Shown here in pieces: positions 9,470 to 22,654 of a stretch of 58,677 nt of DNA. The position numbers were made by a program, and so were the translations under genes. How positions within the stretch are numbered: position 1 is the first letter of the stretch; each line of letters begins with the position of its first letter. A model generated the notes under the pieces. The model worked only from the letters and a program-made list of their open reading frames with translations, was not told the DNA's origin and made no database searches. Location of the stretch: positions 1 through 58,677 of the forward strand of contig NZ_CACZTX010000016.1 in NCBI RefSeq assembly GCF_902784195.1, written 5' to 3'. This DNA comes from an uncultured Methanobrevibacter sp. Lineage in GTDB: Archaea > Methanobacteriota > Methanobacteria > Methanobacteriales > Methanobacteriaceae.

Positions 9470-10150
9470 ATGGAAAGGATAGTGGCTATCATACCGGCTT
9501 ACAATGAGGAAGATGCTTTACCTGATGTCATAGGTGGAACTTTAAGGCATGTAGATGAGGTTATTGTTGTTAATGATGGAAGCAGTGATAAGACTGCTGA
9601 AGTAGCTATTGGAGCAGGGGCTCGTGTGATTAGCCATAGCATTAATTTAGGCAAGGGTGAAGCATTGAAATCAGGTTTTAAAGCTGTGGATGATGATTCT
9701 ATCATTGTTACAATTGATGGTGACGGTCAGCATAATCCTGATGAGATTCCTGATTTGATAATGCCAATTATTGAAGATGGTGTGGATTTGGTTAATGGTA
9801 GCCGGTATATGAATGGCCCTGAGGAAAACACTCCTGCATATAGGAGAGTTGGACAAAAGGTTTTGGATATTGCAACCAACATCTCTGCAGGAATTAAGAT
9901 CACAGATTCTCAAAGTGGTTTCAGAGCATTTTCTTCAAGCGCTAAAGATTGTTTCAGATTTAAAGATACTGGTTTTGGAATTGAAAGTGAAATGCTTGTT
10001 GATGCTGCAGAAGCCGGTTTAAAAATAGTTGAAGTTCCTATTACAGTTCGTTATGATGTTGATGGATCAACTAAAGACCCTATAACTCATGGAGTAGGTG
10101 TTTTATTCAATATAACTAAAGATAAAGTTCTCAGAACATTTAAAAGATAG
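9470..10150 (+). CDS. family 2 glycosyltransferase (dolichyl-phosphate sugar synthase type)
   Basis: A 226-residue GT-A fold enzyme. IIPAYNEEDALPDVI is followed by VVNDGSSDKT and the DxD-type DGDGQHNPDEIP, then DSQSGFRAF in the acceptor region. This is typical of soluble dolichyl-phosphate mannose/glucose synthase-like proteins that load a sugar from UDP or GDP onto a lipid carrier at the inner membrane face. No trailing membrane helices are present. It is the last gene of the rightward glycan block and faces the leftward ABC exporter across a repeat array. Confidence 0.87.
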   Translation: MERIVAIIPAYNEEDALPDVIGGTLRHVDEVIVVNDGSSDKTAEVAIGAGARVISHSINLGKGEALKSGFKAVDDDSIIVTIDGDGQHNPDEIPDLIMPIIEDGVDLVNGSRYMNGPEENTPAYRRVGQKVLDIATNISAGIKITDSQSGFRAFSSSAKDCFRFKDTGFGIESEMLVDAAEAGLKIVEVPITVRYDVDGSTKDPITHGVGVLFNITKDKVLRTFKR

Positions 10151-10219
10151 TTGATTCATTCTTTTTTTTTAAATAATTTAATTATTTTGAAAGAAAAAAT
10201 AGATTCCCAAAAAAATTTA

Positions 10220-12229: not shown

Positions 12230-12575
12230 AATGTTTACCTTATTAAGTAGAATAATAATATATTAAATATATCTTTTATAAGTATATAAAATTATTTATA
12301 ATCTTTTATAATATTTATTTAGTAAAAGATTATATAATCTTTTGGATTTAAGTTATGATTAAATTTTACAAATCTTGGTATGTTTTTTTAGGGAAAACCT
12401 ATATGAAAAATAAATAATTGAATATCTAAATTAATTAATTATTTAAAATCATTAAATTATTTAAATTAATTGAATTATCTAAATTATTTAAATTAATTAA
12501 ATTATATTAATAATGACAAACAATATTATAATAATAAAATATAATTTTATTTTTAAAAATTAAGGAGAGATAAAA
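12230..12575. other. divergent AT-rich intergenic region
   Basis: About 346 bases between the leftward ABC exporter and the rightward peptide gene. They are dominated by short ATTTAAATTAATTA-type repeats and contain no open frame of note. Promoters for both directions must lie here. An AGGAGAG ribosome binding site for the peptide gene is at the right edge. Confidence 0.5.
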
Positions 12576-12794
12576 ATGAAATTTGAAGATTTAATTGCAA
12601 AATGTCCTAAATGCGGTTCTACTGATAAGACTGCTCACAGGAGATTCATTGATAATCATCATGCACATGCTGAATTAAAGGAATTTAAATGTGACAATTG
12701 CGGATATGTTTTTGAAACTGGTAATGATGTGGAAAAATCAGAAGAGGAAACAATTAAAAAAGACCTCATAGGTGAATTAAATAAAAAATTGTAA
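12576..12794 (+). CDS. Cys-rich small protein, candidate substrate of the adjacent radical SAM enzyme
   Basis: A 72-residue soluble protein. Two CxxC pairs (CPKCGS near residue 10, CDNCGY near residue 39) frame a His-rich stretch (IDNHHAHAEL). The tail is acidic then basic and lacks cysteine. This looks like a zinc ribbon. From memory it resembles the small Cys-rich peptides of Methanobacteriales (TIGR04165-like) that accompany a SPASM radical SAM protein, which here is the next gene. AGGAGAG precedes the ATG. A hairpin and T-rich run separate the two genes, as expected if the peptide is made in excess over the enzyme. Alternative: a plain zinc-ribbon protein. Confidence 0.75.
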   Translation: MKFEDLIAKCPKCGSTDKTAHRRFIDNHHAHAELKEFKCDNCGYVFETGNDVEKSEEETIKKDLIGELNKKL

Positions 12795-12813
12795 TATTTC
12801 TTTAAAGGATAAA

Positions 12814-12833
12814 AGCAAGTGCTTTCATTTGCT
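12814..12833 (+). terminator. attenuator-like hairpin between peptide and radical SAM genes
   Basis: AGCAAGTG (12814-12821) pairs with CATTTGCT (12826-12833) through 8 bp including one G-U, with loop CTTT. ATATCTTTTTAAATTTATTTTTT follows. The hairpin is weak to moderate, suiting partial rather than complete termination. Confidence 0.5.
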
Positions 12834-12866
12834 ATATCTTTTTAAATTTATTTTTTGAGGGATTAA

Positions 12867-14006
12867 ATGACTTTTCATGTAATGATCATACCAACTTTAG
12901 GATGCCCATCTAACTGTGCCTATTGTTGGGGTTCTGAAGAAAATGCAGAATTAATGGATATTGATGTTATAAATCAAATTGTCAAATGGCTAGCTAATTT
13001 CAGGGATGAACCTGTACATTTTACTTTCCATGGTGGAGAGCCATTGCTTGCAGGTTATGAATTCTATGAAAAGGCACTTCCATTGCTTAATGATGCAACC
13101 ACTCATGAAACTGAAGGTTTTTCCCTACAAAGTAATTTATGGCTTTTAGATGAAGATATGGCTAAATTATTCTCAAAATATAATATAGCTATCAGTACAA
13201 GTATTGATGGTCCTAAAGAGATTAATGATTATCAAAGAGGTGAAGGATACTTTGATAAAACTATGAAATCAGTTAAATTAGCTACTGATAATGGCATACA
13301 AATCAACTTTGTTTGCACTTTCACTTCATATTCCAAGGATTTCTCCGATGAGATTTATGATTTCTTTAAGCAAAATGGATTGAACTTAAAAATTCATGCT
13401 GCTTTGCCGTCCTTGCGTGGGGATAATGCAGATCCATGGGCACTTCCTCAAGAGGAACATGGAAAACTGTTAATCGATTGGTTAGATAAGTACTTGTACG
13501 ACTTGGATAAGTTTGTTATAATGGACTTGGATCATATTGCAAAAAGCAGTCTTAGAAGAGTGGGAACTTTATGTACTTTTAATGATTGTATGGGTACTAC
13601 TCTTGCTGTAGGTCATGACGGTTCAATTTACCCTTGCTATCGTTTTGTTGGAATGGATGAATACGTAATGGGAAATGTATACGATGAGCCTTCCATGGAA
13701 GACTTGGAGAAATCTGAGGCATGGGAAAAACTAATGGAATTCAAGAATTTTGTTGATGAGGACTGTGCAGATTGCAAGTTCATTAAATTCTGCAGAGGAG
13801 GATGCCCATATAATGGAATAGTGGCAACCCAATCTCCAAGAGCTGTAGATCCACAATGTGAAGCTTATAAGATGATTTTTGGTGAAGTTTCTAAAAAAGC
13901 TAATGAAGACTTTAAGAAACATGCTATGGTCGCATTTGGTGGAGCTCCAAGAGTTAGAAAAGAAGGAGACCCATTTTCAATCATGGATTTAATGACTAAA
14001 ATGTAA
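12867..14006 (+). CDS. radical SAM/SPASM peptide-modifying enzyme
   Basis: A 379-residue enzyme. The SAM cluster motif is CPSNCAYCW (C13, C17, C20), followed by FHGGEPLL and STSIDGP as in anaerobic sulfatase-maturase-like proteins. The C-terminal SPASM region has cysteines in CTFNDCMG, IYPCYRF, CADCKFIKFCRGGCPYNG and CEAY, enough for two auxiliary [4Fe-4S] clusters. Proteins of this type modify ribosomally made peptides or proteins. It resembles, from memory, TIGR04083. The neighbouring 72-residue Cys-rich protein is the likely partner or substrate. The chemistry (thioether, Cys or His modification, or other) cannot be told from sequence. Confidence 0.85.
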   Translation: MTFHVMIIPTLGCPSNCAYCWGSEENAELMDIDVINQIVKWLANFRDEPVHFTFHGGEPLLAGYEFYEKALPLLNDATTHETEGFSLQSNLWLLDEDMAKLFSKYNIAISTSIDGPKEINDYQRGEGYFDKTMKSVKLATDNGIQINFVCTFTSYSKDFSDEIYDFFKQNGLNLKIHAALPSLRGDNADPWALPQEEHGKLLIDWLDKYLYDLDKFVIMDLDHIAKSSLRRVGTLCTFNDCMGTTLAVGHDGSIYPCYRFVGMDEYVMGNVYDEPSMEDLEKSEAWEKLMEFKNFVDEDCADCKFIKFCRGGCPYNGIVATQSPRAVDPQCEAYKMIFGEVSKKANEDFKKHAMVAFGGAPRVRKEGDPFSIMDLMTKM

Positions 14007-21418: not shown

Positions 21419-22654
21419 ATGAGTTTTGATTATGATGTCACTATCATTGGAGCAGGTCCGATTGGTTCAACTTTAGCATATGAATTATCTAAAGAAGATA
21501 TTAACGTCTGTCTAATAGATAAGAAGAAAGTAATAGGATTGCCATTGCAATGTGCCGGCATAATCAATAAAAAAGTGTTGGACATCAATCAATTTCCAGA
21601 GGAATTAATATTAAATAAAGTCAAAGGTGCTATTTTACACAGTAAAACTCATTCATTATCTGTATCTAAAGAGGAAGACCAAGCAATAATTATTGATAGG
21701 GTTGCATTGGATCAATTCTTATACAACAGGGCTATTGATAATGGTGCTCATTCCTATTTGTCCTCTAAGGTTCTAGCTATTGATTTTAATGAAGGAAAAG
21801 TTTCATTTCAAAGGGAATCAACTGAAAAAACCATTAAATCAAAGATTATTGTTGGTGCAGATGGGCCTCTTTCCATTGTTTCTTCTGCATTTGGCAATGA
21901 TTTGAAATTTTATTGTGCAAGCCAATATTTGGTGAAGGTTGATGAGGATAATGATCAAATGTCATTTGTAGATTTATATGCCTATGGAGATTTATTTCCC
22001 GGTTTCATATGGCAAATTCCAGTGAATAAAAATACTTATAGGATAGGTATGTTCTCCACATATGATTATAAAAGGCAAAATGAGATTTTAGATGATTTCT
22101 TAGAAAATGATTTCAGATACAATGATTATGAAATAATTGAAAAGTACAAGGGCAAGATTCCTATTTACAATAAGAATAATAAATTGTTTAAAAATAGGGG
22201 TTTGCTTATTGGTGATGCTGCTTCACAGATTAAGCCAACTACTGGTGGAGGGCTTTTGATAGGTTTTGAAGCGGTTGAGATGGCTAAAAAGGCTATTGTT
22301 AAAGCGTTGAATTCAGAAGATTTCAATTCCATAAACCATGAAAAGGAGACTAATGATGACAGCAAGATATTACAGGATAGTCTCAAATCTTATCAAAAGG
22401 ATTTTGAAAAAAGATTCCTAAAGGAATTTTCATATCAGTTTAAGGTTCAAAAGACATTATGCACATTATCAGATGAAGATTTGGATTATTTCTTTGAAAA
22501 GCTAAAAGAAAAGGAAGCCGATAAATTGATATCTGAATATGGAGATATGGATAATCAATCAATACTTGTTAAGGAATTCTTGAAAAGAGGTTTGGTTCTA
22601 TCATTGTTACCAGCCATTCATAAAAAGGAATTGGCTAAGATTTGGTTATTATAA
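21419..22654 (+). CDS. geranylgeranyl reductase family flavoprotein
   Basis: A 411-residue FAD enzyme. The N-terminal Rossmann motif is GAGPIGSTLAYEL, with CAGIINKKVL next, a central VGADGPLS and the FAD-binding LLIGDAASQIKPTTGGGL. This is the pattern of archaeal geranylgeranyl reductases, which saturate the isoprenoid chains of membrane lipids. Family members also reduce quinones or other prenyl groups, so the exact substrate is uncertain. It lies 110 nt after the PH-domain gene on the same strand and 117 nt before trmG10. Confidence 0.82.
   Translation: MSFDYDVTIIGAGPIGSTLAYELSKEDINVCLIDKKKVIGLPLQCAGIINKKVLDINQFPEELILNKVKGAILHSKTHSLSVSKEEDQAIIIDRVALDQFLYNRAIDNGAHSYLSSKVLAIDFNEGKVSFQRESTEKTIKSKIIVGADGPLSIVSSAFGNDLKFYCASQYLVKVDEDNDQMSFVDLYAYGDLFPGFIWQIPVNKNTYRIGMFSTYDYKRQNEILDDFLENDFRYNDYEIIEKYKGKIPIYNKNNKLFKNRGLLIGDAASQIKPTTGGGLLIGFEAVEMAKKAIVKALNSEDFNSINHEKETNDDSKILQDSLKSYQKDFEKRFLKEFSYQFKVQKTLCTLSDEDLDYFFEKLKEKEADKLISEYGDMDNQSILVKEFLKRGLVLSLLPAIHKKELAKIWLL

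Follow-up and report, generated by a model that had tools for sequence, protein, structure and literature searches.

The radical SAM/SPASM family TIGR04083 as the likely didehydroaspartate synthase of MCR in methanogenic archaea

On what does a radical SAM/SPASM enzyme act when its gene lies directly behind the gene of a small Cys-rich protein? The question is raised by a locus in a stretch of 58,677 nucleotides (the window, contig NZ_CACZTX010000016.1) from an uncultured Methanobrevibacter sp.; the closest named relatives of the locus are Methanobrevibacter, mostly from rumen and gut. The two open reading frames of the locus (Table 1) share a strand and are separated by 72 bp, a Shine-Dalgarno-like site preceding each of them, and the small protein carries a CPKC and a CDNC pair as well as the stretch HHAHAE. 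The preliminary description of this DNA had already placed both frames correctly, with their motifs, and the family names that it gave, TIGR04165 and TIGR04083, proved right, both proteins scoring above the cut-off of the respective model. It had further read the pair as a peptide-modification locus with a transcription attenuator between the genes.

Table 1. Features of the two-gene locus, in positions of the window
Feature	Position	Strand	Remarks
Shine-Dalgarno-like AAGGAG, small gene	12562..12567	+	read from sequence
TIGR04165 (methano_modCys) zinc-ribbon gene	12576..12794	+	72 aa; Cys10/13 and Cys39/42; 93.1 bits (cut-off 60 bits)
Weak hairpin, T-rich tail	12814..12833	+	judged a chance feature
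Shine-Dalgarno-like GAGGGA, enzyme gene	12857..12862	+	kept in close relatives
TIGR04083 radical SAM/SPASM gene	12867..14006	+	379 aa; 593.7 bits (cut-off 300 bits), model positions 1-376 of 376; proposed McrA didehydroaspartate synthase
CxxxCxxC, SAM-binding [4Fe-4S] cluster	12903..12926	+	Cys13, Cys17, Cys20; invariant in 34 sequences
SPASM region	13572..13859	+	8 invariant Cys: 236, 241, 257, 300, 303, 309, 313, 331 (34 sequences)
C-terminal helix and hhMDhMhK tail	13866..14003	+	starts at invariant Tyr334; alignment and model

The attenuator was rejected. The stem-loop is the sole terminator-like site in 2.5 kb, a length in which shuffled sequences are expected to give 0.8; it is conserved in none of 10 close relatives (enzyme identity 85-98%), and in the sister genus only about 2-3 bases separate the stop of the small gene from the start of the enzyme gene. 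On these sequence comparisons it is judged to be a chance feature, so that of the original observation both genes and families stand and the hairpin attenuator does not. The HHAHAE stretch is not a feature of the family either, as the same place reads HKSRTS in Methanothermobacter and FKAYGS in Methanosphaera.

The pairing of the two families in Methanobacteriales, also stated in the preliminary description, was borne out by a set of 152 Methanobacteriota genomes, in which the enzyme passed its cut-off in 132 and the small protein in 136. When fragments at contig ends are counted, 134 genomes hold both genes, one and two hold one of them alone, and 15, including the single-contig genome G001, hold neither (Fisher p 1e-17, a value overstated because the genes are physically linked, genomes are incomplete and the lineages have common ancestors). 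The two genes are at most 5 kb apart, in either order, in 105 of 131 genomes, and the linkage is kept across three families, with the order inverted in G138; in 26 genomes, among them the Methanosphaera-type ones (g12), g13 and G143, they are unlinked and both retained. The pair is near-universal and co-lost in this one order, to which the pairing is limited, and resembles in this a housekeeping function. Where adjacent, the genes are probably co-transcribed. Such near-universal co-occurrence, the closeness of the genes and the NCBI family names all favor a RiPP-like pair, in which TIGR04083 would modify the adjacent TIGR04165 protein (e.g., by a thioether or C-C crosslink or by oxidation of a residue). 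Against it stand the lineages in which the genes are unlinked (Methanosphaera, g13, G143) and the small protein itself, which has no leader-like region. No transporter or peptidase was found conserved beside the pair in 20 regions.

The distribution of the enzyme beyond Methanobacteriota also speaks against this pair. When public genomes were scanned with an alignment of the enzyme, proteins of 54-56% identity turned up in ANME-2, Methanoperedens and other Methanosarcinales, and TIGR04083 was over its cut-off in 80 of 247 Halobacteriota genomes, at 627-722 bits and thus above the protein of the window, whereas TIGR04165 was found in 0 of the 247. Because the enzyme occurs in these 80 genomes and TIGR04165 in none, the small protein was rejected as a universal substrate. 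A RiPP system of the leader-core type would have a precursor wherever the enzyme is present, and the 80 genomes are without TIGR04165, a precursor of another type being possible. Taken with the natural knock-out described below, we regard a RiPP-like pair as very unlikely.

What does accompany the enzyme in Halobacteriota is methyl-coenzyme M reductase (MCR). All 80 enzyme-positive genomes have a McrA match (two of these being fragments), and TIGR04083 was found in 0 of the 96 Halobacteriota genomes without one. In 17 of the 80, the enzyme gene follows mcrA on the same strand at a distance of 144-1345 bp, which in 14 of these is within 500 bp; the distance count is based on the 46 genomes having the enzyme and mcrA on one contig. 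In the mcr regions read gene by gene, the enzyme gene comes after mcrBDCGA. Mapped on a maximum-likelihood tree of the enzyme, linkage to mcrA needs at least 4 changes, versus 11.8 for shuffled labels, and it occurs in separate clades. Genomes G212 and G401 are arranged alike around mcrA, except that one has the enzyme gene and the other cleanly lacks it. The linkage to mcrA and the dependence on McrA show an MCR-related role, the residue not being named by these data, and a modification of MCR probably replaces the peptide-modification reading of the locus.

Two minor observations concern the same regions. In the loci of this pair of related methylotrophs, L298 and L299, the enzyme gene is present in one and absent from the other at the place between mcrA and a common downstream gene (MQYSLGIDAGG...), so that they offer a natural comparison for the modification. 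In L298 (from G212), a 121-aa open reading frame just behind the enzyme gene (9836-10201) matches McrA only over its 113 C-terminal positions (436-548), which include the QDQC modification site; it is either what remains of a duplicated mcrA around the enzyme gene or encodes a product of its own.

MCR makes nearly all biological methane, and the modifications of its active site are a long-standing puzzle. One of these, didehydroaspartate, a rare double bond for which the enzyme has long been sought, is present in M. marburgensis, M. barkeri, M. acetivorans, ANME-2c and ANME-2d, and absent in M. wolfeii, M. formicicus, M. thermolithotrophicus, M. kandleri, M. shengliensis, ANME-1 and Ethanoperedens (PMC9081873; PMC12413448). 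The gene for TIGR04083 is intact in M. marburgensis and was found in M. acetivorans, in 9 of 9 Methanosarcina-like genomes whose McrA is 88-97% identical to that of M. barkeri, and in named ANME-2 and Methanoperedens loci (ANME-2 being given here without subclade). It is absent from the ANME-1 genome G298, where McrA has 3SQG as its best match, and, among the named control genomes, from M. jannaschii, which has McrA. In all lineages compared, the presence or absence of the enzyme agrees with that of didehydroaspartate; M. shengliensis, M. kandleri and Ethanoperedens lie outside the comparison, and a search for Methermicoccus shengliensis through McrA gave no genome above 76% identity among those searched.

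The other tabulated modifications were rejected as candidates, as their distributions do not fit that of the enzyme: S-methyl-Cys is found in M. wolfeii, Methanosarcina lacks 2-methyl-Gln, and neither M. marburgensis nor Methanosarcina has 6-hydroxy-Trp (PMC9081873). A substitution of McrA Asp450 proved uninformative as a test of the modification, the Asp being kept everywhere we looked, in enzyme-minus genomes too. Given that mcrA linkage and McrA dependence name no residue and that new MCR modifications are still being discovered (PMC12413448), the enzyme might instead modify MCR, or a factor in MCR assembly, in some other way not yet reported, its match to didehydroaspartate then being a coincidence. 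In view of the agreement in every lineage compared, M. marburgensis and M. wolfeii included, we give this alternative little chance of being right.

The last two species provide a natural knock-out. The TIGR04083 gene is broken in two of eight Methanothermobacter genomes, G151 and G149. In G151, an in-frame TAG stands at the invariant Tyr334, which is TAC in all others. This genome is M. wolfeii, as mtw1216, which flanks prophage psiM100, matches it at 100% over 1149 bp, and its McrA is identical to the 5A8K chain over 550 residues; the McrA of G144, where the enzyme gene is intact, is identical to the 5A0Y chain of M. marburgensis. The two McrA proteins differ at 5 of 550 positions (49, 97, 298, 366 and 373), none near Asp450. 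Since McrA is nearly identical and the site unaffected, the contrast in didehydroaspartate is most likely due to a factor that acts in trans, and TIGR04083 is broken in the negative species, as read from the gene sequences. The small gene, however, is intact both in M. wolfeii and in G149, which we take to be a deltaH-type genome of M. thermautotrophicus, an arrangement that argues against a RiPP-like pair.

The truncated M. wolfeii enzyme retains each of the 11 cluster Cys, and no further clear decay is seen in it; we assume it to be inactive. Relaxed selection on its gene was considered and found weak, pN/pS being 0.17-0.18 versus 0.11-0.14 for deltaH pairs, with no excess of changes at conserved sites. 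Lost with the truncation is the hhMDhMhK tail (13968-14003 in the window), which follows a variable linker throughout the family and may be a docking motif. The lesion in G149 is one G fewer in a G run (L238, G149:C1:70500-74500), and this one-base deletion could be real or a sequencing error.

Linkage to mcrA, phylogenetic profile and natural knock-out do not depend on one another and point the same way. On their strength we propose that TIGR04083 is the didehydroaspartate synthase of MCR, which we hold to be likely. Several points speak against this reading: in Methanobacteriales, the window included, the TIGR04083 gene is not near mcr; the conserved linkage to TIGR04165 is not accounted for; the cluster Cys survive in the truncated M. 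wolfeii protein; Asp450 is kept in enzyme-minus genomes too; and the catalytic Asp of the structurally closest enzyme is replaced, as set out next.

The predicted fold is closest to that of anaerobic sulfatase-maturating enzyme (anSME). The AlphaFold2 model of the window protein (pLDDT 88.6) has anSMEcpe, a two-electron C-beta oxidase, as its best Foldseek match (E 2e-24, TM about 0.8), well ahead of RiPP maturases, and according to alignment and model the protein starts directly with the radical SAM fold, having no leader-recognition domain, a further point that does not support the initial peptide-modification reading. With anSME (TIGR03942; 4K36-4K39) it shares the fold, the combination of radical SAM and SPASM parts, the 8 auxiliary Cys, by sequence enough for two auxiliary [4Fe-4S] clusters, and a short N-terminus without leader-binding domain. 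It differs from anSME in scoring 186 bits versus a cut-off of 349.45, in having no link to sulfatases, and in the catalytic residue, Asp277 of anSME (YPCD) being the invariant Tyr258 (YPCYRF) in TIGR04083. The SPASM RiPP maturases PapB, DynA, SCIFF and ChlB have the SPASM architecture in common with the window enzyme, which nevertheless lies far below their cut-offs, and no precursor peptide tracks it.

From this we infer a mechanism in outline. The enzyme would act on the alpha subunit of MCR, McrA, where, as in anSME, the 5'-deoxyadenosyl radical formed from SAM would abstract a beta hydrogen from one residue, here Asp450 (M. marburgensis numbering). In anSME, abstraction of a beta hydrogen is followed by completion of a two-electron oxidation, and didehydroaspartate formation needs the same electron count. 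Since the catalytic Asp of anSME is a Tyr here, the base must differ, and the chemistry cannot be a plain copy. In assembled MCR the residue lies buried, and TIGR04083 would for this reason probably meet McrA before assembly. Like the known MCR modifiers Mmp10/MamA, MgmA, McmA and YcaO-TfuA, it would be a methanogen enzyme modifying McrA near the active site. Unlike the cobalamin-dependent methylases Mmp10 and MgmA, the S-methyltransferase McmA and the thioamidase YcaO, it is a SPASM enzyme expected to desaturate an Asp.

In the MCR-modification papers searched, the enzyme forming didehydroaspartate is still described as unidentified. The preliminary description knew of no published product for TIGR04083 or TIGR04165, and the literature search likewise gave zero matches, with subscription papers and preprints mostly outside its reach; within the same bounds, no paper linking a SPASM enzyme to mcrA was found, and a published claim may exist. 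The proposal names one gene family for didehydroaspartate and comes with a natural knock-out and many predictions of presence or absence. With the relatives of the window locus coming mostly from rumen and gut, the enzyme bears on enteric methane. By score, the window genes are full members of NCBIfam TIGR04083 (rSAM_pep_methan) and TIGR04165 (methano_modCys), whose labels speak of a peptide-modifying enzyme and a Cys-rich peptide, whereas the data point to McrA as the target. If the proposal is true, the annotation of TIGR04083 as peptide-modifying would change.

What, then, is the small protein? Its folded zinc-ribbon look, remarked on at the outset, is upheld by Cys10, Cys13, Cys39 and Cys42 (CPxCG and CxxC), invariant in 26 TIGR04165 sequences, and by the AlphaFold2 model of the 72-aa protein (mean pLDDT 77), which gives weak structural matches to TFIIS-type zinc ribbons. 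Judging from the alignment, these strictly kept Cys look like a zinc site, which is a further argument against a modified peptide. We take the protein to be a partner or adaptor specific to its lineage, which in Methanobacteriales would act as an accessory to the enzyme rather than as its substrate, or else a neighbor with a separate role of its own. The more complete proposal, in which TIGR04083 is the synthase, to our knowledge the first SPASM enzyme to desaturate an Asp inside a large metabolic enzyme, and TIGR04165 is the zinc-ribbon adaptor that presents unfolded McrA in Methanobacteriales, is as a whole tentative and rather doubtful. Alternatively, the two could be unrelated housekeeping genes, neighbors by inheritance without any working link, which would be compatible with TIGR04083 being the synthase. 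The 26 genomes that keep both genes unlinked, and the enzyme alone elsewhere, fit such a history; joint absence in 15 genomes, with G001 among them, and a linkage kept across three families, with inverted order in G138, do not, and we find it somewhat unlikely.

A role of its own for TIGR04165 would perhaps be tied to geranylgeranyl reductase. Directly behind the small gene, Methanosphaera-type genomes (g12) have the genes for a 54-aa ferredoxin and for this reductase, in that order (3 genomes read gene by gene, the 20 of g12 by coordinates), and in G108 and G138 the small gene, the enzyme gene, the ferredoxin and the reductase all form one cluster. This order suggests a tie with archaeal lipid saturation, to which the zinc ribbon alone would then belong, standing near the enzyme gene by history. 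In the other genera, however, the reductase gene lies at a distance of 15-76 kb or on a different contig, and common ancestry leaves about three independent cases, so that we consider this role unlikely for the small protein. For the window pair, a lipid-saturation link was rejected, as the geranylgeranyl-reductase-family gene at 21419-22654 is related to the lipid enzyme no more closely than as a distant paralog.

Individual loci with TIGR04165 directly 5' of the 54-aa 2x[4Fe-4S] ferredoxin and a digeranylgeranylglycerophospholipid-reductase-like gene are L067 (7296-8875), L068, L069, L072 and L083, from Methanosphaera-type genomes and two other genera. In Methanobacterium/Methanothermobacter-type genomes, a second paralog resembling TIGR04165, in which the loop separating the two Cys pairs is longer, was seen at L072 3025-3252, L085 7936-8154 and G144:C1:519871-520050.
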